From: a virus
Reading direction: 5' to 3' (one strand)
Length of the DNA stretch: 25,899 nt
Virus record (IMG/VR): IMGVR_UViG_3300036840_000029
Location: 1-25,899 of that record
The number at the start of each line of letters is the position of its first letter. Position 1 is the first letter of the stretch. This document shows, piece after piece, positions 4,825 through 25,896 of this stretch. The notes beneath the pieces are model-generated. The model was not told where the DNA came from. It did no database searches and saw only the letters and a list, made by a program, of their open reading frames with translations. The position numbers and the translations under genes were made by a program.

Positions 4825-6923
4825 CCGGTGCGCTCCATCAGGTCGGCCCGGCGGGCGGTCATTTCCTCGATCTGCCGCACCACCTCACGGCCGATGCGGT
4901 GCGGGGACTTGCTCGCCCCTTCGACGCGGACGCCGCCGACGTTGACCACGGTGGTGCGCGGAGCCGAAGAGCTCATGCCGAGCCACTTCTGCCCGACGTA
5001 GTCCCAGATGGCCCTGGATCTGCCCATGTCGCCGCGCTTGGGGATGAAAGCTTCGCCGCCGGTGGCCGGCTCGGCGAACGCGTAGCGGGCGGGCGACCTG
5101 GGGCTGACAACGGCGGCTTCCCTCAACAGCCCCGTCTGGGCGTGCTCGTACACCCCGCCGTAGCGGTTGAACTCCGTGAATCCACCCGACGTGCCGGTCA
5201 CGGATCCGTCCGGAGACGACACCGAGATGCGGATGTGCTTCCGCGACGGAATCCTGGCCAGGGCTTCCCGCACCTGATTGGCGCGCGCGACCGCGGACTG
5301 CGCGCCCTTCACATCCACGGTGGTGTTCACCTTGGCGGGGATCGCCTGGTACTTGCCGATCAGCCGGTCGATCTCCTCGGCGGTGAAGCCAGCCTGCAGC
5401 ATCGTCTTGCGCAGCCCCGCGATGTCCTTGGAGTACTTGGCGTTCGCCGAGTCGATCGACTCGCCGTGCTCGATCCGGGCGTCGCGCAGCGACTTGAACT
5501 TGTCGATCTGATCCAGCACGGCGGAGGCGTTCTCCCGCCCCGCCGCGGTGTTCAGGTTCAAGGTACGGCGGCCCTCGGTGAGTTCTTCCTTCAGCTCCTT
5601 CATGCCGTCCTTGGCGGCGATGGTCGCCCGGTCCAGGCCCATCTCAGCGGCGAACAGCTCGTCGAATGCCGTATTCAGGCGTTCGACCTCTTCGGCGGTT
5701 TCCGCGGCGGACCTGCCGAGGTCGTCGAATCCGCCCGCGGTGTCGTCGCTGGCTTCGTGGACGCCGTTGAGAATCTGCGTCAGGTGGTCCAGGCGCTGCC
5801 GTCCCTCTTCGAGCCGGCCGGAGAACAGCGGGTTCCAACCCATCACGGATTCGGTGAAGGAGTGCGCGGCGTCGGCCGCGTTGACCAGCCACCGGAACAT
5901 GTCGACGAAGAATGCGACGACGTCGCCGCCGATGCGGATGATCCCGGCCAGTCCCTCGAGGATGAGGTCCACGCCGGCGGCGGCGGAGTTCGCGTCGCCG
6001 GAGATGTTCTCCAGCATCTCGGTGATCGCGTCGCCGATGTCCGGCAGCCGGTCGGACAGCACGTCGATGACCGGGCGGGCCCGGTCGAGCAGGGCCACCA
6101 CGCCGGGTAGCGCGTTCCTGGCCAGCCCGATGAATCCGCGGGTCAACGGCTCCACCAGGTCAGCGGAGTCCGCGAAGATCTCGTCGAGTTCGGGTTTCAC
6201 GGCCCGCAGTTCCTTGCGCAGCACGCCGACGGTCTGGATGGCGATCGGCACGAACTGCTTCGCCGAGTCGCCCAGCACCGCCATCGCTTCGGTGCCAAGC
6301 CCCGCCAGGGCTTCCTTGACGCGGGCGTCGCGGGCAGCCAGCGTGAACCCGCCGACCACGCCGCCGACACCGGCGCCGCCGAGCACCGCCCCGGCGACGG
6401 CGGACCCGACGATCGACGCCACGCTCGCCGCGATCGGCGCGCCGATCGCGGCGCCCACCGCGCCGGCCGCGCCGGACGGCATGGGCAGCTTGGCCATCAC
6501 CGGGCCCAGCCTGGTCATCAGCGACGCGCCCGCGCCCTCGGCCAGTTGTTCGCCGACGGTTTCGCCGAAGTCGCGGTCGAACAGCTCCTTGGCCTTCAAC
6601 TGCCCTTTGAGCTTCACCAACTGCCGGTTGAGGTCGCCGAACAGGGTGACGTCGCCGGTGTCCCGGAACGCCCGGTCGAGCCGTTTGATCTCCCGCGCGG
6701 TCTCGGCGATCTCGTTGTTCAGCTTCTCCGCGGCGCGCTCGCTGACGCCGAACGATTTCTCCGCGCTCGGGCCTATCTCGGCGATCGCCTGAGCGGTCAG
6801 GTCGCCGTTGCGGGCCGCGTCCTGCAGCTCGCCGACAAGGTCCTTGGCTTCGCTCTTGGTGTCGCGCAATTCCTTCTTGGCCTGCGACGCCTCAACGGTG
6901 AGCTTGGTGCCGACGGTGCGCAC
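4821..6923 (-). CDS. Tape measure protein
   Basis: 700 residues, starting at GTG shortly after the GT stop. The N-terminal ~130 residues are charged and heptad-like (coiled coil). Residues about 147-205 are extremely Gly/Ala/Val-rich and hydrophobic (for example GAPIAASVASIVGSAVAGAV), with a second hydrophobic stretch around 320-355 (IIRIGGDVVAFFVDMFRWLV). More coiled coil follows at about 405-500, then a basic C-terminus. This composition, plus the place right after the frameshifted chaperone pair, is diagnostic. It sets tail length and is ejected into the cell envelope; by the usual rule of about 0.15 nm per residue the tail would be near 105 nm. No lysozyme or peptidase domain is visible, unlike many actinophage tape measures. 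Confidence 0.92.
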   Translation of the reverse strand: MRTVGTKLTVEASQAKKELRDTKSEAKDLVGELQDAARNGDLTAQAIAEIGPSAEKSFGVSERAAEKLNNEIAETAREIKRLDRAFRDTGDVTLFGDLNRQLVKLKGQLKAKELFDRDFGETVGEQLAEGAGASLMTRLGPVMAKLPMPSGAAGAVGAAIGAPIAASVASIVGSAVAGAVLGGAGVGGVVGGFTLAARDARVKEALAGLGTEAMAVLGDSAKQFVPIAIQTVGVLRKELRAVKPELDEIFADSADLVEPLTRGFIGLARNALPGVVALLDRARPVIDVLSDRLPDIGDAITEMLENISGDANSAAAGVDLILEGLAGIIRIGGDVVAFFVDMFRWLVNAADAAHSFTESVMGWNPLFSGRLEEGRQRLDHLTQILNGVHEASDDTAGGFDDLGRSAAETAEEVERLNTAFDELFAAEMGLDRATIAAKDGMKELKEELTEGRRTLNLNTAAGRENASAVLDQIDKFKSLRDARIEHGESIDSANAKYSKDIAGLRKTMLQAGFTAEEIDRLIGKYQAIPAKVNTTVDVKGAQSAVARANQVREALARIPSRKHIRISVSSPDGSVTGTSGGFTEFNRYGGVYEHAQTGLLREAAVVSPRSPARYAFAEPATGGEAFIPKRGDMGRSRAIWDYVGQKWLGMSSSAPRTTVVNVGGVRVEGASKSPHRIGREVVRQIEEMTARRADLMERTG

Positions 6924-8929: not shown

Positions 8930-8971
8930 CGGCGCACCTCCCAAGATGGGTTAGCCCGCCGATGAGCGGGA

Positions 8972-9373
8972 TCAGGCAGGAACCGACTCAAGTCGGTAGG
9001 TGGAAACGGAGTCGAAGAAGCTGGCGCCGGTGGTTTCGTCGCGGATCGTCGGCTGCCCGTCTTCGCGCCGGATCGGCAGACACCGCCGGCCGGTTACCGT
9101 CGGGACGATGTCGAGGAGCTGGGTGCGGGCGAACTGCTGCATCGCCCTCGCGGAAGAGCCGGTGACCCCGACGCCGTGGACGATGCAGCGGGTGACATGC
9201 CGCTCCGACGCGCCCTTCAACGGCCGCGAATCGGCCTCCTCCGGGTCGCCGTCGTCGAAGTACACAAGCAGGTACGGGGTTACTGCGCCCTGCGGCACTT
9301 TCCCGTCGTGCACCGGCGGCCCGCCTCCGGGCTGCAGCAGCGCGAGGAACGCGTTCGCATGCAGTTGGATCAT
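8972..9373 (-). CDS. Tail terminator/completion protein
   Basis: 133 residues; the ATG overlaps the stop of the gp10-like gene (ATGA). The sequence has the look of phage tail terminators: an N-terminal helix after MIQLHANAFLALLQ, a YLLVYFDDGDPEEAD strand-turn, an IVHGVGVTGSSARAMQQFARTQ strand-helix, and a final FDSVSTYRLESVP strand. Such proteins form a ring capping the tail tube and join it to the head connector. The gene order stopper, gp10-like, terminator, tube protein is the usual one in long-tailed phages and is the strongest evidence. It contains two Cys (about 62 and 98) with no obvious metal site. Confidence 0.75.
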   Translation of the reverse strand: MIQLHANAFLALLQPGGGPPVHDGKVPQGAVTPYLLVYFDDGDPEEADSRPLKGASERHVTRCIVHGVGVTGSSARAMQQFARTQLLDIVPTVTGRRCLPIRREDGQPTIRDETTGASFFDSVSTYRLESVPA

Positions 9374-12484: not shown

Positions 12485-13333
12485 TCAGCCTCCGTACTGC
12501 GCGATGAGGTCCGTCAGCGCCTTCTTCTCCGGCGCCCGGGTGTCGAGGTTGTCGCCGCCCCGGTAGAACCAAGCCAGCGCGCGGGCTTCCGGCTGTGCGG
12601 CGAAGTAGGTGGCGTGTTCGCGCATGCGTTGCGCGCACAGCGAGCCCGTGTCGTCCGACGCGATCCGCTCAATGCCCCACTCGGCCACCACCAGCGGTTT
12701 GCCGTGCTGCCGTGCATGCGCGAGGGCGAAGCCGAACATGTTCGACGCGGTCCGGTACGCCTGGGTGGAGTTGTTGTAGATGTCAAACCCGACCGTGTCC
12801 ACACCGTCGAACCCGGACACGACACCGAAGTCGCCGTACCAGCTCGCAGCCCGAGATCCGCGGGTCGCCGCGTACTCGGTGTACACCGGCGTCAGCATGA
12901 CCTCACCGCGACGCGGATGGCCTGCCAGCGCGGCGGTCAGTTCCCGCCACTCGGCCCGGTACTCCGCCGGGGCGGGGTCTCCGGAGTCCTGCTGTTCCGG
13001 TTCGTGATCCAACGTCAGGTAGAACGGAGTCCGCCGGTTCGTCGGTCTCGAGGTGAGCCATCCAGCGACGTTGACCGGCCACGTTTTGAACGAGACGTGC
13101 AACGTCACATCAGCACCGACCATCGGCAGGATCCCTGACGTCCACGACGGAAGGGTCGTCTTGGAGTACAGCCGTACCAGCTTCGTGCCGGGAAACTTGG
13201 CCAGCATGGGACCGAGCTGCGCAACGGTCGAGTCGGGCGGACACCAGCCGACTAGCAGTTTCGCAGGGGCTTGCGCCGAGTAGCTGACCTGCCGGCCGTC
13301 CGCCAACCGGAGACGGCCGGTGAACGTGGTCAT
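12485..13333 (-). CDS. TIM-barrel glycoside-hydrolase-like protein (GH26/clan A style)
   Basis: 282 residues; I use ATG 13333, overlapping the upstream TGA (ATGA), rather than the open extension to 13399. After an N-terminal leader, strand LLVGWCPPD begins a barrel. The rest shows barrel strands with FYLTLDHEPEQ, placing Glu111 after His110 like the acid/base position of clan A enzymes, and PLVVAEWGIER, placing Glu218 like the nucleophile. Between them lie GEVMLTPVY and VDTVGFDIYN. The two Glu at strand ends are what one expects from mannanase/cellulase-like retaining enzymes. No signal peptide is visible, so the enzyme would reach the outside as part of the virion or after lysis. Substrate is unknown; host wall or capsule polysaccharide is a guess. 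Confidence 0.75.
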   Translation of the reverse strand: MTTFTGRLRLADGRQVSYSAQAPAKLLVGWCPPDSTVAQLGPMLAKFPGTKLVRLYSKTTLPSWTSGILPMVGADVTLHVSFKTWPVNVAGWLTSRPTNRRTPFYLTLDHEPEQQDSGDPAPAEYRAEWRELTAALAGHPRRGEVMLTPVYTEYAATRGSRAASWYGDFGVVSGFDGVDTVGFDIYNNSTQAYRTASNMFGFALAHARQHGKPLVVAEWGIERIASDDTGSLCAQRMREHATYFAAQPEARALAWFYRGGDNLDTRAPEKKALTDLIAQYGG

Positions 13334-13605: not shown

Positions 13606-14217
13606 TCACGGGACGGGCACGCTGTACGCGCGGGACACGACCAGCGGGACGGAGCCCGGTGGCCGGCCGTACTGCTTGCGCAGCGCCTTGGACATGAACT
13701 CGGTGACCTGCGAGGCCATCGCCTCGTACGCCACCTGGTAGTCGTCGATCGCCTCGCGCACCGCGCCGGACGGGTTGGCGTAGAAACCCTTCGCCAACGA
13801 CAGGCACATGCTGCGGGCGAGCTGCAGCTTCTGATGCCCGACCGGGTAGCCGTGGGTGTTGGTGACAGTGACGGTGGATGGCTGGTCGAAGTAGCCGACC
13901 AGCGTCGAACGCCACCCGTCGGCCCGCCACAGGCTTCCCCGAGACAGTTGCGCCGAGTAGTCCGTGACCGCGGTGGCGCCGATCAGCACCGAATCCACCG
14001 CGGTCACGGGACGTTCCGGCAGGTACAGGTACGGACCCGCGTCGTACCCGTCCAGGTCCAGCTCGATCTCGTCGTCCACGACCTGGACGATCCGCTGACC
14101 GACCTCGGCCTGGATGATGGCGGTGGCCATCTCCAGCACCAGGTTGGCGGTGGACGCGTCGAGGTCCTGCTGCAGCAGGGATGCGAGGTCCTCCGGTTCG
14201 GCGAACTTGTCGGCCAT
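13606..14217 (-). CDS. Head-tail adaptor (connector) protein, HK97 gp6-like
   Basis: 203 residues; ATG 14217, GAAGGCGAGG site. Signs of the adaptor family: an N-terminal helix pair (FAEPEDLASLLQQDLDASTA, NLVLEMATAIIQAEVGQ), the strand EIELDLDGYDAGPYLYLPERPV followed by TAVDSVLIG, and the NTHGYP turn followed by QLARSMCLSLAKGFYANP helices. Residue order (helices, LPERPVT, V-x-TNTHGYP, helices) is characteristic. Twelve copies would bind the portal and form the landing ring for the stopper. Here the downstream neighbour is a foreign-looking cassette rather than the stopper. Confidence 0.88.
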   Translation of the reverse strand: MADKFAEPEDLASLLQQDLDASTANLVLEMATAIIQAEVGQRIVQVVDDEIELDLDGYDAGPYLYLPERPVTAVDSVLIGATAVTDYSAQLSRGSLWRADGWRSTLVGYFDQPSTVTVTNTHGYPVGHQKLQLARSMCLSLAKGFYANPSGAVREAIDDYQVAYEAMASQVTEFMSKALRKQYGRPPGSVPLVVSRAYSVPVP

Positions 14218-14235: not shown

Positions 14236-14526
14236 TTACTTCTTGGCGACGCCGGCCGCCTTGCGGGCGGTGTCGGCCTGCGCCTTGCGGGCCTGCTCGG
14301 CGGCGTCGTCGTCGGTTTCCGGCGTCGGCGCACCCGAGGTCACACCCTGAACGGTGTAGTTCTCGTTGGGCGTCGGGTCCACCTCGACGCCACGGAAGCC
14401 CTGCTCCTGCTCGCGGTCGACGCGCTCCTGCACCTCGGCCGTGGACCGGTCAGCGTTCGTGGCGTCCTGCCGGGCCTTCTGCCCCTGCGGGCTGTTCTCC
14501 GGGTGGTCCCTGGTGGTGCTCACCAT
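14236..14526 (-). CDS. Small charged protein of head region, unknown
   Basis: 96 residues; ATG 14526 with AGGAGG just upstream; GTG 14523 is a possible alternative. The sequence is hydrophilic and likely disordered: Asp/Glu/Gln-rich N-terminus, then DPTPNENYTVQGVTSGAPTPETD, ending in an Ala/Lys helix (EQARKAQADTARKAAGVAKK). Proteins with this PTPNENYTVxGV stretch recur between capsid and adaptor genes of Streptomyces-type phages, but function is not known to me. No catalytic motif is visible. Confidence 0.75.
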   Translation of the reverse strand: MVSTTRDHPENSPQGQKARQDATNADRSTAEVQERVDREQEQGFRGVEVDPTPNENYTVQGVTSGAPTPETDDDAAEQARKAQADTARKAAGVAKK

Positions 14527-14536
14527 CGGTTGCCTC

Positions 14537-14944
14537 CTAGGCGTACGTGGCGGCGATGGTCACGTTGACCAGACCGCCTGGGTCGGCGATACCAGTACCC
14601 ACGGCGGTGGACTGCCACTGCAGAACGTCCCCGGCGGCCACGACGAGATCCGCGGCCGTCCCCGACAAGGTGATGGTCTTCTCGTCGCTGGCCGTGGTGT
14701 TCACGCCGGAGTTGAACTGCAGCGTGGCGATGGTGGTGGTGCCGGCGCCGGCCTGGCCCTTGTTGACCAGCGACACCGAACGGGTGTTTGTGTTCGCGCC
14801 GGTGATCGCGGTGACCGTCGAGTAGGTGACGGCGGACACTGTGCCGGCGGACTGCACGACGTGGATGTTGGTGTTGCGGCTGTTGCCCACCGTCGACTCG
14901 GGAGCAACGGCCATCTGGACGGACTTGCCGAATGGCGCGGTCAT
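14537..14944 (-). CDS. Putative capsid decoration protein
   Basis: 135 residues; ATG 14944 with a CGGGAGAA site right after the major capsid stop. The protein is Thr/Ala/Val-rich and nearly free of charged residues after the first 30: TVSAVTYSTVTAITGANTNT, then SVSLVNKGQAGAGTTTIATLQF and KTITLSGTAADLVVAAGDVLQWQS. This suggests a beta-sandwich. Uncharged beta proteins encoded directly next to the capsid gene usually cement or decorate the capsid. No Ig-domain Cys pair or known motif is present. Confidence 0.72.
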   Translation of the reverse strand: MTAPFGKSVQMAVAPESTVGNSRNTNIHVVQSAGTVSAVTYSTVTAITGANTNTRSVSLVNKGQAGAGTTTIATLQFNSGVNTTASDEKTITLSGTAADLVVAAGDVLQWQSTAVGTGIADPGGLVNVTIAATYA

Positions 14945-14960: not shown

Positions 14961-15905
14961 TCAGGCGAGGTTCAGGCGGGCGACGGGGTACCGGTTGGCT
15001 TCGGTGGCCTGGTCGTAGTTGAGCAGGTTGCTGACCTGCCAGCCGACCCGGAACGTCAGCCGCAGCGCCGTCATGTCCTGCTGTGCAAGGTTGTAGATGA
15101 TCGTGCCGGTGTTGTCCTGGATGACGGCCTCGGTGAGGACCTTCATGGTGATGTCCTGGCGGACACCGACCACGAAGTTCGTCCAGTCGCCGACGAACAG
15201 CCGCGGCGCACCCGAACCGGTGGGCCACAGTCCGCGCATCGGGTAGACGATCGGCGTGCCGTCCAGGGAGGTGAGGTCGCCGGAGAGCCGCCCGGCGTCG
15301 AGGGCCTGCCCGGTGGAGTCGCGGGCTGCGCGCAGCGCGCCGCGGGCGGTGCGGTTGGCGACGATGCCGGTGGCGTCGAACCCGTCGGCCTCGAGCAGGG
15401 CGAGGGTTTCGTCGATGTCGCCGAAGTAGCCGCCCTGCGCGGCGGTGTTGCCTTCGGTGTTCACGTTGCCGGCGGCGGTCGCCGCGGCGGCGATGTTGGT
15501 CGGCCACGACGCCGGGGCGTTGGTGCCGAAGAACACGGCCGCGTCGAACGCCCGGTAGAACGCCTCCACGAGGTACGGCATCATTTCGTCCCAGATGTCC
15601 ATCTCAACGTCGGCGACGACGTTGTCGGGCACTGGGACGATCGCGGCGATCTCCTCGATGTTGAGGTACTTGTTCGTCCAGTTGACCTCGGTGGTCTGCT
15701 TCAGACCGGTGTCGCCGGTGACGAAGTACGCGACGGGCAGCGCCGACAGGACCGGGAACCGGACCTGCGCACGGCCGACGGGCACGCGGCGGAACAGCCG
15801 CAGCGTCGCCGAGTCATCGGTGGCCCGGCGGATCATGTCCCGGGAAACTTCCTCCGGGATGAGTGCGCTCGCATCCGTGCGGGACACGAGGTTGTTGTAG
15901 GCCAT
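14961..15905 (-). CDS. Major capsid protein, HK97 fold
   Basis: 314 residues; ATG 15905 with an AAGGAGTGATCC site. Typical sequence of short actinophage HK97-fold capsid proteins: N-terminal arm with ALIPEEVSRDMIRRATDDSATL, then RVPVGRAQVRFPVLSALPVAYFVTGDTG, the strand KYLNIEEIAAIVPVPDNVVAD, and the A-domain helices DIWDEMMPYLVEAFYRAFDAAVFFG. The C-terminal part contains PIVYPMRGLWP, LFVGDWTNFVVGVRQDITMKVL and LRLTFRVGWQV. No long N-terminal delta domain is present; instead a separate scaffold gene lies just upstream. I see no separate head protease gene. Confidence 0.95.
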   Translation of the reverse strand: MAYNNLVSRTDASALIPEEVSRDMIRRATDDSATLRLFRRVPVGRAQVRFPVLSALPVAYFVTGDTGLKQTTEVNWTNKYLNIEEIAAIVPVPDNVVADVEMDIWDEMMPYLVEAFYRAFDAAVFFGTNAPASWPTNIAAAATAAGNVNTEGNTAAQGGYFGDIDETLALLEADGFDATGIVANRTARGALRAARDSTGQALDAGRLSGDLTSLDGTPIVYPMRGLWPTGSGAPRLFVGDWTNFVVGVRQDITMKVLTEAVIQDNTGTIIYNLAQQDMTALRLTFRVGWQVSNLLNYDQATEANRYPVARLNLA

Positions 15906-21769: not shown

Positions 21770-21774
21770 GGCGG

Positions 21775-21990
21775 TCATGGTGTCTGTCCCTCCGAAGAAG
21801 CCCGAACGTCGTTGGCTTGGCCCATGTGCGCATCCGCCGCAGCGGCCACGTCGTCGGCGGTGAGCCCCGCGGCGAACATCTCAGCCCCACCGCATTCGGG
21901 GCCGCTGCACAGCATCAGCAGCCCGGCGGTCTTGCCGCGCATCGCAGTGCCGACCACATAGACGGCTTTCAGGTGCTCGTCTCTGGTCAC
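21775..21990 (-). CDS. Small unknown protein with CxxxxC
   Basis: 71 residues from GTG 21990, which overlaps the upstream stop (GTGA). The sequence has VYVVGTAMRGKTAGLLMLCS, then GPECGGAEMFAAGLTADDVAAAADAHM. A Cys pair (CSGPEC) sits between a hydrophobic strand and helices. I do not recognise the family. It is the last gene of the upstream cluster before the ~105-bp regulatory gap. Confidence 0.65.
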   Translation of the reverse strand: MTRDEHLKAVYVVGTAMRGKTAGLLMLCSGPECGGAEMFAAGLTADDVAAAADAHMGQANDVRASSEGQTP

Positions 21991-22306: not shown

Positions 22307-22768
22307 TCACCTCAGCTTCAACAGATCCGCCGGTGCCCAGCCTGAACCCACCGCAGCATCACGCCACCAACCGGACACCTCGGTCGCCAACCAATCACCG
22401 ATAGAAGGAGCCAGCGTCGGTGCCGCGCCGACGAGCGCGCGCAACATCGCCTTATGCCAGTCCGCGCCGCGTTCGGGTGACGGCAGGCCAAGCTTGACGC
22501 GCCAGAACGAGATCCCCACGTAGATCCCCGACAGCAGGTCCGCCACCTCAACGCGCAACGGTGGTTTCGACTGCGGGATCGGACGACGTTCCTGACCCCT
22601 AACCGTGTTCCCCGGAACCGCCGCCGCCCTTAGCTGGTCGAGGAGTGGGGCGTGGGTGACGATCCGGTTCCGCACCACCAAATGGATCGGCTCACACAAC
22701 TGCCGAACATCAGCGGCCATCCGCGCCAGGACGTCATGAGACGGCGCTCTCGCCGCAACGTTACTCAC
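22307..22768 (-). CDS. Unknown actinophage protein (DUF7341-like)
   Basis: 153 residues from GTG 22768, coupled by GTGA to the previous gene. An N-terminal helix (LARMAADVRQLCEPIHLVVR) leads to PLLDQLRAAAVPG, a polar linker with RGQERRPIPQSKPPLRVEVADLLSGI, and Trp-containing C-terminal helices (SFWRVKLGLP, GDWLATEVSGWWRD). The layout of LLDQLR, flexible linker, PPLR-x-V-x-DLL resembles small actinophage proteins grouped as DUF7341; that link is from memory of the pattern and should be treated as tentative. No enzyme motif is visible. Confidence 0.65.
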   Translation of the reverse strand: MSNVAARAPSHDVLARMAADVRQLCEPIHLVVRNRIVTHAPLLDQLRAAAVPGNTVRGQERRPIPQSKPPLRVEVADLLSGIYVGISFWRVKLGLPSPERGADWHKAMLRALVGAAPTLAPSIGDWLATEVSGWWRDAAVGSGWAPADLLKLR

Positions 22769-23016
22769 CGTGGCACCCCCATCGATGCTGCTATGCGGCG
22801 TATGTCAGCAAACCGGTCCGTCTCAGGCCGGGGATTCGGCGCACTCGTACCGGCCGGTAACCAGTCGGGGCGGTGCTCAGGTTCGACGGAGCGTAAGTAC
22901 TCGACGAGAGGCGGGCGGAACGCGCGCCACACCTCGCACCAGTCGCACTCGCAACGCAGCACCTCGACGCGACCATCGGCGTAAGCCGCTTCGATGCGGT
23001 GCACGCCGTCAGTCAT
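22765..23016 (-). CDS. Small Cys-containing protein, unknown
   Basis: 83 residues from ATG 23016, overlapping the upstream stop by 8 bases (ATGACTGA); the longer open frame upstream is Ser/Thr/Arg nonsense. A strand HRIEAAYADGRVEVLRCECDWCEVWRAF contains CECDWC, a likely zinc or cofactor site. The rest is a Pro-rich loop and helix DRFADIRRIAASMGVPR. The stop overlaps the next gene start (GTGA). No family recognised. Confidence 0.65.
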   Translation of the reverse strand: MTDGVHRIEAAYADGRVEVLRCECDWCEVWRAFRPPLVEYLRSVEPEHRPDWLPAGTSAPNPRPETDRFADIRRIAASMGVPR

Positions 23017-23245
23017 CGGTGGGCTCCAGACCGGAAGCAGCGCCGCATGCGCAGCCGTCGATGCAGCACCGGAACGCGGGTTCGTCGCGCTCGCCGATGT
23101 CGTGGACGTACGCGGTGTGCTGGCACGGCGGGTCATTCGGGCACGCCCAAGCCCACGCTTCGTGGATCTCCCGCTCGTCCTGCGCAATGTCGTCCTGGCG
23201 GTCTAGTGCTTCCACCACCAACCTGTGCCGCTCCGGAGGTGTCAC
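23009..23245 (-). CDS. Small Cys-rich protein, probably zinc-binding
   Basis: 78 residues from GTG 23245 (GTGA overlap). The first half is helical and charged (RHRLVVEALDRQDDIAQDERE); the second has CPNDPPCQHTAYVHD and FRCCIDGCACG, with six Cys and nearby His that could bind one or two metal ions. It ends acidic. Small treble-clef or ribbon proteins like this are common in actinophage early regions; function unknown. Confidence 0.65.
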   Translation of the reverse strand: MTPPERHRLVVEALDRQDDIAQDEREIHEAWAWACPNDPPCQHTAYVHDIGERDEPAFRCCIDGCACGAASGLEPTDD

Positions 23246-23439
23246 GGCTGCTCCAAAATCTCATCGAGTGGAGCCCCGCACGAGCACAACGCCGTCCCGT
23301 CGCGCAGCGACCAGCCGTCGCAGGCTTCATGCGTGGTGCCGCGCTTGGCCTGCTCGATCAGCGGGATCAGCGCCTTGGCCTCTGCGGTGATCCACTCCAT
23401 GGTGCGGTCGGTGGGCTCTTGCGGGTTAGGTCCGTCCAC
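23242..23439 (-). CDS. Small protein with VDGPNP start motif and Cys cluster
   Basis: 65 residues from GTG 23439, with a GGGAGGAG site lying inside the previous gene's last codons. The N-terminus (GPNPQEPT) is encoded by the recurring start-site sequence. A helix (EWITAEAKALIPLIEQAKRG) and HEACDGWSLRDGTALCSCGAP follow, the latter a likely metal knuckle. The start overlaps the previous stop by 14 bases (GTGGACGGACCTAA). No family recognised. Confidence 0.6.
   Translation of the reverse strand: MDGPNPQEPTDRTMEWITAEAKALIPLIEQAKRGTTHEACDGWSLRDGTALCSCGAPLDEILEQP
23421..23438 (-). repeat. Start-site motif, copy A1
   Basis: 18 bases (TGGACGGACCTAACCCGC on the minus strand), identical to copy A2 at 23738-23755. 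It contains codons 2-6 of the gene at 23242 and supplies the TAA stop of the gene at 23426. Confidence 0.8.
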
Positions 23440-23581
23440 GGCGTCTCCTCCCGTACGCGGCGTGCATGCGCGAGATCCGGGGCCAGTTCGGGTAGCCCTG
23501 GATGATCCTGATCTCGGCGATGAGGGCTCTTAGGTCTGCGGCGACAGTCGTCCGGCGTCGGCGCTGCGGGTTAGTCCCCAC
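23426..23581 (-). CDS. 51-residue basic protein with GTNP start motif
   Basis: Begins at GTG 23581 (GTNPQRRRRTTVAADLRALI), overlapping the previous stop by 11 bases (GTGGGGACTAA). It has a central helix AEIRIIQGYPNWPRISRMHA and a C-terminal YGRRRRGRT whose Arg run is encoded by the Shine-Dalgarno sequence for the next gene (GGGAGGAGACGCC). Two Arg clusters make it strongly basic. It may bind nucleic acid or serve mainly to relay translation. Low prior, but the overlaps at both ends support it. Confidence 0.55.
   Translation of the reverse strand: MGTNPQRRRRTTVAADLRALIAEIRIIQGYPNWPRISRMHAAYGRRRRGRT
23566..23581 (-). repeat. Start-site motif, copy C1
   Basis: 16 bases (GTGGGGACTAACCCGC), identical to copy C2 at 25061-25076. 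It carries the GTG start of the gene at 23426 and the TAA stop of the gene at 23571. Confidence 0.8.
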
Positions 23582-23756
23582 TACAAACCCCCCCAATGAC
23601 CTCGTGCATGGCGCGCTTGAACTCGGCATCGAGATGAGCCCGGCAGCGGTCGGTCTTGAGGAAGAAGCGTCGGCCGCACTCGATGCAGCCGAGACCCCAG
23701 CGCTGCGCGAAACGACGCCAGCGAGCGATCAGGGGCCGCGGGTTAGGTCCGTCCAT
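23571..23756 (-). CDS. 61-residue zinc-ribbon-like protein with DGPNP start motif
   Basis: ATG 23756 overlaps the previous stop by one base (TGATG). After MDGPNPRPLIARWRRFAQRWG comes GCIECGRRFFLKTDRCRAHLD, with Cys-x2-Cys, Cys and His as a compact metal site, then a helix ending GGVCSGD. Its TAA stop lies within the next gene's start motif. Probably a small metal-binding, nucleic-acid or protein-contact module; function unknown. Confidence 0.62.
   Translation of the reverse strand: MDGPNPRPLIARWRRFAQRWGLGCIECGRRFFLKTDRCRAHLDAEFKRAMHEVIGGVCSGD
23738..23755 (-). repeat. Start-site motif, copy A2
   Basis: Identical 18 bases to copy A1. It begins right at the start of the gene at 23571 and encodes DGPNP, but here the TAA is not used as a stop by the upstream gene. 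Confidence 0.8.
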
Positions 23757-23920
23757 CAACGCACCGACGACCCGAACGCCGAAATGGTCTTGTCCGGGCC
23801 TTCTTGGGCCTGCTCTTGCAGCTTGCGCACTGCGGCCTCAAGGTGCGGCGGCAGGGCCCGGTCGAGCAACTCGGCCACCGACATGTCGTTGATCTCTTTG
23901 ACGTGCTGCACGACGCTCAC
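23756..23920 (-). CDS. 54-residue helical protein
   Basis: GTG 23920 with GGAAGGAG six bases upstream; stop overlaps the next ATG by one base. The sequence reads SVVQHVKEINDMSVAELLDR, ALPPHLEAAVRKLQEQAQEG and PDKTISAFGSSVR: two amphipathic helices, no Cys. It is too short for default gene finders but has a good ribosome site and coupling at both ends. Function unknown. Confidence 0.6.
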   Translation of the reverse strand: MSVVQHVKEINDMSVAELLDRALPPHLEAAVRKLQEQAQEGPDKTISAFGSSVR

Positions 23921-23970
23921 CGGCGTCTCCTTCCTTTGATCTTCAGGGTGTCGGGGTTAGGTCTGGTCAC
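23917..23970 (-). CDS. 17-residue mini-ORF with TRPNP start motif
   Basis: GTG 23970 shares a base with the previous TAG (TAGTG), and the TGA overlaps the next GTG (GTGA). The peptide would be MTRPNPDTLKIKGRRRR. Its Arg-rich end is encoded by the next gene's Shine-Dalgarno region, so it may be a coupling relay or the remnant of a gene deleted between copies of the start motif rather than a working peptide. Confidence 0.4.
   Translation of the reverse strand: MTRPNPDTLKIKGRRRR
23954..23970 (-). repeat. Start-site motif, copy B1
   Basis: 17 bases (GTGACCAGACCTAACCC), identical to copy B2 at 24196-24212; forms the start of the 17-residue mini-ORF. Confidence 0.8.
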
Positions 23971-24212
23971 TACGAACCTCCCCGATCGTGCTCGGCCAGC
24001 CAAACCTTCCCGGCCAGCGTCAATGCCCAGCGGTCGTCCTGGAGCCGTGTCGGCGGGTAGTGCAGGAACACCAACCCGGCATCGAAGAGCGCGGCGAGAT
24101 GACGGTCGGTCGGGTAGCCCGGCTCGTTCTCGGCGACTGTCCATGTTCGGCTGGCCACTCGCCGCGCGGCTGCGATCAGTTCCGGTGTGGGCTCCGGGTT
24201 AGGTCTGGTCAC
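23970..24212 (-). CDS. 80-residue unknown protein with TRPNP start motif, winged-helix-like
   Basis: GTG 24212 overlaps the previous stop by 14 bases (GTGACCAGACCTAA); the longer open frame upstream is Pro/Ala/Cys nonsense. After the motif come helices (ELIAAARRVASRTWTV) and TDRHLAALFDAGLVFLHYPP, then RWALTLAGKVWLAEH. The LxxLFDAGLV...ALTxAGxxWL pattern resembles the last helix and wing of a winged-helix domain, so DNA binding is possible but unproven. Confidence 0.62.
   Translation of the reverse strand: MTRPNPEPTPELIAAARRVASRTWTVAENEPGYPTDRHLAALFDAGLVFLHYPPTRLQDDRWALTLAGKVWLAEHDRGGS
24196..24212 (-). repeat. Start-site motif, copy B2
   Basis: Identical 17 bases to copy B1. It forms the start of the gene at 23970 and supplies the TAA stop of the gene at 24199. 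Confidence 0.8.
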
Positions 24213-24429
24213 CGGCACCGTCCTTGGCCGCGCATCGGGAACACCGAGGCAACATGCGCTGTGTGCTGCTGAGCCAGCCGGCACCCAACCGGGGGCGGAC
24301 TCCACACGCGGCGCGGTCCCGCCCAGACCACGTGGTGACGGCGTGGGCGAAGCGGCCGCCGGGCAGGCATCGCCAGGACAGCCGGGGCGGCTCAACCGCC
24401 ACGATCAGACGGTGAGGAGCGGCCGTCAT
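24199..24429 (-). CDS. Small Cys-containing protein, probable zinc-binding
   Basis: 76 residues from ATG 24429 (ATGA overlap). The layout is LSWRCLPGGRFAHAVTTWSG, then AACGVRPRLGAGW, and MLPRCSRCAAKDG at the end. A widespread actinophage pattern of an AHA strand, xxCG and a final CxxC fits a small zinc-ribbon-like protein. Its last codons lie in the start motif of the next gene. Function unknown. Confidence 0.65.
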   Translation of the reverse strand: MTAAPHRLIVAVEPPRLSWRCLPGGRFAHAVTTWSGRDRAACGVRPRLGAGWLSSTQRMLPRCSRCAAKDGAGDQT

Positions 24430-25133
24430 GCTGCCCCCTCGATTAGGTCGAGCTGGACGACCTCGTAGATCGGCGCTTCCGGCACCGGATCAGGGACAGG
24501 CTTCGGCTTCGCGTGAGCGTGCTGGTCGAGCACCTTCCCGGCGGCCTTGCGGAGCTGGTCAGCGGTCGCGCTGCGCGCCCACTGGATGTTGTGCAGCGCC
24601 TGCACGAGCCGGCAGCGGGTGGCCTCCAGGGCGTCGCGTTCGGCGTTGAGCCGGGAGTAGTACTCGCCTTGCGCCTTAGCGACCTGTTCCAGATCCGTGT
24701 CGCGTTGGTCGGGTGGGATCAGCGCGAGTGCGGCGTTTTGGAGTCGGAAGCAGTCCGCGCGGGTGTGGTCGAGGTCGATCTGCGCCCTGCGGGCGGTGCG
24801 CTGGTAGTGCTCGATGACGTCGGAGCTGGTCGGGCCCTCCTCACGGCGTACGCCGGGCCATCCTTGGTCGAGCCATCGGGTCAGCCAGTCGACCAGTTCG
24901 CGCACCTGGGTGCGGGACGCCACCACCGACCTTTCGGCATACCCGTTGCGGTGCCCGACCTGGATCACTAGGTCGTCCGTGATCGACGGTCGGTAACGCG
25001 AGCCGATGACCAGGACATTGGTGTTGTCATGCAGCTCGTACTGCGTGACCACGTCCCCACGCGGGTTAGTCCCCACCTTGCGCTGCAGGGCGGCGCTGGC
25101 GGCATGCTTGGCGCAGCAGTCGCCGTCACTCAT
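24426..25133 (-). CDS. 235-residue unknown protein with coiled coil; internal start-motif copy
   Basis: ATG 25133 overlaps the previous stop by 8 bases (ATGAGTGA). Residues 1-19 (MSDGDCCAKHAASAALQRK) look like the front of a small Cys protein. Residue 20 onwards begins with VGTNPRGDVV, the recurring start motif; GTG 25076 is an alternative start (216 residues) but has no Shine-Dalgarno. Then strands (YELHDNTNVLVIGSRYRPSI, DDLVIQVGH), a helix VRELVDWLTRWLDQGW, and a long Arg/Glu/Ala coiled coil from about 120 to 205, followed by a Pro-rich linker and VVQLDLIEGAA. No catalytic motif seen. Confidence 0.68.
   Translation of the reverse strand: MSDGDCCAKHAASAALQRKVGTNPRGDVVTQYELHDNTNVLVIGSRYRPSITDDLVIQVGHRNGYAERSVVASRTQVRELVDWLTRWLDQGWPGVRREEGPTSSDVIEHYQRTARRAQIDLDHTRADCFRLQNAALALIPPDQRDTDLEQVAKAQGEYYSRLNAERDALEATRCRLVQALHNIQWARSATADQLRKAAGKVLDQHAHAKPKPVPDPVPEAPIYEVVQLDLIEGAA
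25061..25076 (-). repeat. Start-site motif, copy C2 (internal)
   Basis: 16 bases identical to copy C1, but here inside the open frame of the 235-residue gene; GTG 25076 is in frame. The same TAACCCGCG region continues as GTGGGG, also found at about 25222-25233 in the upstream gene. Confidence 0.75.
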
Positions 25134-25896
25134 TGGTGATCTCCTTCGGTGCTTCGGGGACAGGAACCCACGAACCCACCCCGGCAGGCGGTTCCAGCAG
25201 GTCACACAGAGCGCTGATCACCCCACGCGGGTCAGGCTCGGAGCATGAGCACGACATCGGCAAGCCGGCGTCGCACGACCCGCAGACTTGAAGCCACCGC
25301 TTCCGAATGTCCGCGACGGTGCCGAAACCGGGAACCCGGCAGGACGCGGAATGCTGGTGTGCACCGATCGGAGCAGTGCACCCCGTGCGGGTGTCTTCTG
25401 GTAGGAGCCGACCCGCCGCAGCCAACGCAGCAAGCACGCGCCGTGCCGCGTGCGGTGCGTCTCCGCCGTCGGTCCACACCTCATCGATGACGTCCTGGGC
25501 GAGCCGCACGTCGTCTTTGGTGTAGCCGACGTTCGCCAAGCTGGTTTCGGCGCTCACAGGAGCGCTCGAAGCGCTTTCCTGGGTCATCTCGTCTCCCGGG
25601 TCGAACTCGCCGTTGCGGGCTCCGGCGACGAACGCGTCCAACTCGGCCTCGGTGAACGACAGCGGGAAGAACCACGCGTCCAGATTCACCGGCTCGCCGT
25701 CTTTGATCTGCTGCATGCGCTGCGCCCAGTCCGACCGGGTGAACGAGATCGGCTCCTGGTCGGGGTTCTTGGGGTCGCGCACCAGGATCTGGTCGCCGGA
25801 CGTGTCGACCTGCACGCAGTCCCCGCCCTCGCATGGGGACCGGAAGCCGACCTCGACGCATTGGCCACCCTCGCAGCGCCGCCACTCGACTTCCAC
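25126..25896 (-). CDS. DUF397-like protein with C-terminal Cys-rich region, possibly 5'-partial
   Basis: 256 residues from GTG 25896, but the frame is open to the window edge, so the true start may lie outside. The N-terminus has WRRCEGGQCVEV, then a fuller unit GGDCVQVDTSGDQILVRDPK with NPDQEPISFTRSDWAQRM, and later FTEAELDAFVAGARNGEFD, which also looks like the end of a DUF397 unit; the first and last pieces may be one copy split by the second. DUF397 proteins in Streptomyces and relatives pair with XRE-type regulators. The C-terminal half has HSASCRVPG, VCGSCDAGLPMSCSCSEPDP and VISALCDLLEPP, a Cys-rich likely metal site. Role in the phage is unknown; host-derived domain suspected. Confidence 0.7.
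   Translation of the reverse strand: MEVEWRRCEGGQCVEVGFRSPCEGGDCVQVDTSGDQILVRDPKNPDQEPISFTRSDWAQRMQQIKDGEPVNLDAWFFPLSFTEAELDAFVAGARNGEFDPGDEMTQESASSAPVSAETSLANVGYTKDDVRLAQDVIDEVWTDGGDAPHAARRVLAALAAAGRLLPEDTRTGCTAPIGAHQHSASCRVPGFGTVADIRKRWLQVCGSCDAGLPMSCSCSEPDPRGVISALCDLLEPPAGVGSWVPVPEAPKEITNE

Follow-up and report, generated by a model that had tools for sequence, protein, structure and literature searches.

A recurrent start-site sequence on unrelated small genes of two related phages, a candidate boundary for gene exchange

Background

Recombination at short boundary sequences, located at the junctions between phage genes (Clark et al. 2001; Susskind and Botstein 1978, cited in PMC3029335), has long been proposed to account for phage mosaicism, and it is an accepted route to it, though one seldom observed, because such sequences cannot be recognized at most mosaic borders (PMC3029335). 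Gene 68 of mycobacteriophage Island3 provides an example, with a pair of gene ends of ~50 bp as boundary (PMC3029335), and phage annealing proteins are able to recombine diverged DNA (PMC2327257). A second system of interest, in cluster K mycobacteriophages, is the start-associated sequence (SAS), GGGATAGGAGCCC. It precedes the start codon, mostly ATG, by 3-7 nt, with a preference for genes with upstream gaps >50 bp (PMC3203893); its role is still unknown (PMC3203893, PMC12699233, PMC11373665).

Here we analyse a short sequence that recurs at the starts of small genes in an IMG/VR virus record of 25.9 kb (25,899 nucleotides; the window, that is, the whole stretch of DNA analysed), whose structural and terminase genes resemble those of actinobacterial phages. 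Boundary sequences are the closest known kind. Like them, the motif is a short piece of DNA at gene borders, with unrelated genes in between whose gain or loss can be explained by recombination, and it is a conserved junction sequence flanking non-homologous genes in related phages. What is new here is a many-copy boundary at the coding start: the Island3 repeat is a pair of gene ends, whereas the present one comprises a gene start and its first codons and is found six times in a single cluster. The original prediction had likened it to the mycobacteriophage SAS, and the comparison is apt in idea, both being short, asymmetric repeats found in many copies in the non-structural arm, in a single orientation, at the starts of different gene families and not in hosts (14 genome matches to the motif, about the chance number). 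Membership of the SAS family was nonetheless rejected on sequence and position, since the motif departs from the SAS consensus, its genes overlap and mostly begin with GTG, and it follows the start instead of preceding it by a few nucleotides: counted from the first base of the start codon, the T of TAACCC comes 8, 11 or 14 nt later.

Other repeats were also considered. The PeSL cassettes of T4-type phages combine an intergenic promoter with a stem-loop and have been proposed to drive the shuffling of small unique genes; the motif resembles them as a repeated cassette for which a part in gene shuffling is proposed, but its genes overlap or are almost contiguous, and no stem-loop common to the copies was found. 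The attC sites of integrons are imperfect palindromes with a GTTRRRY core at the 3' end of each cassette. In reverse complement, types A and B of the motif (defined below) contain GTTAGGT and type C contains GTTAGTC, without that core; moreover, the overlapping genes leave no room for attC and the fold is not unusually stable, and an integron-like cassette was rejected on core and palindrome. The stoperators of cluster A mycobacteriophages are repressor-binding transcription sites that are not tied to start codons. Like the motif, they are short directional repeats (PMC3203893), and it is in its association with start codons that the motif differs from them.

Results and discussion

Copies of the motif in the window

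The heptamer CTAACCC occurs seven times in the window, always on the minus strand (23423, 23568, 23740, 23954, 24196, 25063 and 8948), against a mean of 0.91 per window in shuffled sequence, and a count of seven was reached in 0 of 100 shuffles. Six of these copies are packed into 1.65 kb at the right end of the window, in a cluster of small overlapping genes (23242..25133, minus strand, as are the other genes examined) that yielded no Pfam match at cut-off and no significant PHROG match. The seventh (8948-8954) lies between two structural genes, away from any start codon. In agreement with the original prediction, the six clustered copies constitute three identical 16-18-mer pairs (repeat families D2, D10 and D12): form A, GTGACCAGACCTAACCC, at starts 24212 and 23970; form B, RTGGACGGACCTAACCCGC, at starts 23756 and 23439; and form C, GTGGGGACTAACCCGC, at 25076 and 23581. 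Read directly from the junction sequences, the motif corresponds to CCTAACCC at codons 3-6, in a single orientation and at a fixed in-frame position.

Five of the six stand at start codons, as had been claimed, four of them opening ORFs of 51-80 codons and one a much shorter ORF. Form A starts the 80-codon gene 23970-24212 (GTGACCAGACCTAACCCGG, 24194..24212, minus strand), form B the 61-codon gene 23571-23756 (ATGGACGGACCTAACCCGC, 23738..23756, minus strand) and the 65-codon gene 23242-23439 (GTGGACGGACCTAACCCGC, 23421..23439, minus strand), and form C the 51-codon gene 23426-23581 (23566..23581, minus strand). The second copy of form A (23954..23970, minus strand) opens only a 17-codon ORF (VTRPNPDTLKIKGRRRR, 23917..23970, minus strand), which ends in a 4-nt GTGA overlap with the next gene and looks like a start site that may have lost its gene body. 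The second copy of form C (25061..25076, minus strand) falls in frame within the ORF 24426-25133; its GTG at 25076, lacking a Shine-Dalgarno sequence, is 19 codons inside this longer ORF, for which the ATG at 25133 is a better start.

The same slot in related phages

A scan for form A identified a related phage, G001 (IMGVR_UViG_3300043331_000707, 40,951 bp), that shares with the window much of the structural region, including a minor tail protein that is 77% identical, as well as an HNH gene and the two genes flanking the cluster: on the left, a gene with a DUF397 domain (25126..25896, minus strand; PF04149, 9e-10) and, on the right, a DUF7341 gene (22307..22768, minus strand; PF24030, 4.9e-7). 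In both phages the DUF397 domain is found inside the phage gene upstream of the cluster. The syntenic slot between the DUF397 and DUF7341 genes of G001 holds a different set of small genes, and five of these (12312, 12746, 13013, 13350 and 13628) have motif starts. All five G001 copies thus lie at start codons, the outcome sought in a check on relatives set beforehand. The cluster genes in the slot gave no strong match between window and G001; the best body similarity across the two phages, weak and local, links 23439 to the C-terminal part of 13013 (E 1.4e-5, two-sequence comparison).

Start sites behave differently from bodies. The two clusters share 30 12-mers (1.1 in shuffles), and of the 10 maximal exact matches of at least 12 nt between them, nine are at gene starts. 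The copy at 24194..24212 is identical over 19 nt to G001 12746-12764, and at other copies the identity amounts to 28 of 29 nt at window 23954-23982 (minus strand; G001 12734-12762) and to 27 of 28 nt at window 23424-23451 (GGAGGAGACGCCGTGG..., minus strand; G001 13001-13028). A second shared start junction, CGGTGAGCGTCGTG (23909..23922, minus strand), at the start of gene 23756-23920, is identical over 14 nt to G001 13617-13630, where it precedes motif gene 13628. A possible degenerate copy, ATGACGGCCGCTCCTCACCGT (24409..24429, minus strand), at the start of gene 24199-24429, matches the form at G001 13350 in 16 of 21 positions, a level of agreement that may be due to chance. One start sequence is seen on unrelated or differently acquired bodies, in two phages and in the same syntenic slot.

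A third relative, G002, shares the DUF7341 gene, and its cluster is without CTAACCC. It carries a junction repeat of its own, GGGAGAGGACAAGAGCAGTGA (L214:5046-5066, 5315-5335, 5908-5928 and 9339-9359), which resembles a start-associated sequence.

Beyond these phages, a viral scan for ribosome-binding site plus motif found no carrier other than G001, and scans for the exact 17-mer and 16-mer otherwise returned unrelated contigs with one copy each; L229 and L008, being fragments identical to G001 and to the window, respectively, were not counted as independent. The motif was absent from relatives identified through the terminase, and named phages gave no tblastn match to the window proteins 24426-25133 and 23970-24212. 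The genome matches mentioned above, obtained with ribosome-binding site plus motif, are scattered, and a host-wide or widespread distribution was rejected. A broader pattern admitting any GGAG start gave mostly low-GC chance matches, and its loci were reused only as background for a survey of 212 viral sequences, a convenience sample of 2.1 Mb in which both motif phages were included. In this survey, in-register start duplicates of at least 14 nt with unrelated downstream sequence were sporadic, amounting to 25 pairs, mostly one per sequence, and no cluster comparable to that of the window was present in any other of the 212 sequences. In all, the motif phages found are two, the window and G001.

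Further shared or repeated sequences lie at junctions in these and other phages. A boundary-like stretch of 32 nt at a gene junction is identical between window 21772-21803 and G001 15613-15644, the upstream proteins being unrelated but for a common ending, ASSEGQTP. Gene ends encoding AASGLxxT are followed by the next start (GCTTCMGGTCTGGRG...) at window 23009-23042 and at G001 14327-14360 and 14533-14558. In Mycobacterium phage MKC-IRE-02 (L231:952-1660), a nearly identical GCAGGGGAGGAAGC precedes several neighbouring start codons.

Conservation at the DNA level

Across the 11 copies (six in the window and five in G001), mean pairwise identity is 0.97 in TAACCC, a value partly built in because copies were collected via the core, 0.72 at positions -5..0 and 0.49 at +6..+10, reaching background (0.26-0.30) from about +10. 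The motif has sharp borders, identity ending abruptly in the test that the original prediction had put forward. A relaxed scan of gene starts, which serves as a check on the built-in identity, recovered the longer form at 0-1 mismatch and none with 2-3 mismatches; there is no decay series. Codon usage at the motif is constant, too. The codon before Asn is Pro in nine copies, always CCT, and Thr in two, always ACT, yet the structural genes of the window phage use CCT for 5.9% of prolines and ACT for 2.8% of threonines. The invariable use of these rare codons indicates conservation at the DNA level, and not a plain protein need.

These data bear on an alternative in which the shared N-terminus has been inherited within one diverged gene family. 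A weak similarity between the bodies of 24212 and 23756 (E 0.009 with the motif removed) fits such an origin, but the 11 motif ORFs range from 17 to 216 codons and their bodies are otherwise not alignable, homologues of two bodies are without the motif, and the conservation of rare codons is a DNA-level trait. Common descent of the genes is very improbable, and full-length paralogy, the subject of another check set beforehand, is not observed.

The two bodies with homologues elsewhere are both from G001. That of 13013 has homologues in Mycobacterium (Cheoctovirus) and several Gordonia phages, which have different starts (e.g. MSEVFVRPTRYEV) without the motif, the homology beginning past it. 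That of 12312 has its homologue in gp79 of Gordonia phage LitninMcQueen. On these sequence comparisons, motif and gene body have separate histories.

The start of LitninMcQueen gp79, ATGCCCAGTGACACCCCAACA, is found also on gp74 of Gordonia phage Apricot, a different protein. Compared with Apricot, LitninMcQueen has an extra gene, gp78, between start-site copies (L233:1466-1524, L234:3719-4021); GATTCCGATGCCYAGT is present at both LitninMcQueen junctions around gp78, and the left side of the Apricot junction corresponds to the junction before gp78 and its right side to the junction after it (26 nt exact). Judging from the aligned junctions, the presence or absence of gp78 looks like gene gain or loss at another start-site repeat, in this case in named phages. 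For the CTAACCC motif, no near-identical pair with and without one gene was found, and no exchange event was seen there.

Translation at the motif

The original prediction had offered three functions for the element, namely recombination boundary, regulator or RNA-element site, and translational coupling device. Coupling was suggested by the TAA of the motif, which, as claimed, is the stop of the upstream gene at 24199, 23571 and 23426, and is so again at G001 12320. Ribosomes that terminate at this TAA might resume on the start codon that lies 8-14 nt before it. However, the stop of the upstream gene is at another place in the remaining copies (seven of 11), a strong Shine-Dalgarno sequence of their own is present in most copies, and coupling does not require CTAACCC. 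It is plausible only as a by-product, and very unlikely as the reason for the motif.

An RNA hairpin hiding the ribosome site was likewise considered, in which CCUAACCC would pair with the Shine-Dalgarno sequence GGGAGG and leave the start codon in the loop. Pairing is predicted with near certainty at three starts (23970 and 23756 in the window, 12746 in G001) and, over most of the core, also at G001 13628, but it is no better than in 70 background genes (p=0.06), 68% of permuted motifs pair as well or better, and swapping the motif between copies costs nothing significant (p=0.26). After folding, comparison with background and permutations, and the swap test, the hairpin is unsupported, and we judge it highly improbable. 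The segment GGACCUAACCC may resemble the complement of a stretch of 16S rRNA.

A broader form of regulation, of a kind that has been proposed for the SAS of cluster K phages, would have the CCUAACC core, just behind the start codon, bound by a protein or RNA of phage or host origin that co-regulates the small genes at translation initiation; we hold this possibility only tentatively. The single orientation and the fixed in-frame distance from the start (8, 11 or 14 nt) are in keeping with it, as are a core that stays constant despite rare codons and the absence of decayed copies. Speaking against it, there is no conserved fold, pairing of core and upstream sequence being predicted in some copies only and with energies not below those of shuffles; an Rfam search returned nothing; G002, with the same flank gene, manages without the motif; and no candidate regulator was identified. 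A more elaborate proposal, that a phage-specific start element within the coding region assigns unrelated small genes to a regulon under one dedicated translational regulator, and is at the same time the landing site where new genes enter this regulon, appears somewhat more doubtful.

A start-site boundary

The explanation that we favour, and regard as moderately likely, is that the motif forms the core of a boundary sequence at gene starts, shared through gene swapping at short start-site homologies. The location of nine out of 10 matches at starts, the lack of strong matches between bodies and the fall of identity to background by +10 all support it, as do the body homologues without the motif, the gp78 case at another start sequence, the 17-codon ORF that looks like a start without a body and the 32-nt identity at a further junction; of the functions proposed originally it is the best supported. 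The boundary would comprise some 20-30 nt, beginning with the ribosome-binding site, including the start codon and ending at codon 5 or 6, and would provide any gene that follows with ribosome site, start codon and first codons. Its TAA would close an upstream gene that is not read in the frame of the start codon, the next gene being opened at the same place; the second non-coding frame often contains a TGA or TAG as well. Homologous or annealing-type recombination between start sites could then insert, delete or replace small genes, and, as every such event would restore the start, the start sequence would become common.

We infer that recombination at start sites is the cause, and that an Erf single-strand annealing protein probably assists in it. 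An Erf family protein is encoded by G001 (PF04404, 8.6e-21) and by G002 (6.5e-19); the recombinase of the window phage itself is not seen because the contig ends before the expected Erf region. The different junction repeat of G002 is to be expected if position counts more than letters. Against a boundary, TAACCC varies less than the adjoining ribosome site, the motif is carried by two phages only, and no exchange at the motif itself was seen. Pure recombination relics should decay, and no decay series was seen, so that either very recent copying or an additional constraint or function, at the RNA or DNA level, is needed.

Conclusions

The core of the original prediction, a junction element conserved where genes that are otherwise unrelated begin, is supported, the bodies being mostly unrelated. 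Two relatives here display a start-site boundary in many copies, and gene bodies behind it can be traced to other phages. The finding also carries a warning for annotation, in that small phage genes may share their first codons without being related, and it suggests, in testable form, how new small genes may gain translation signals.
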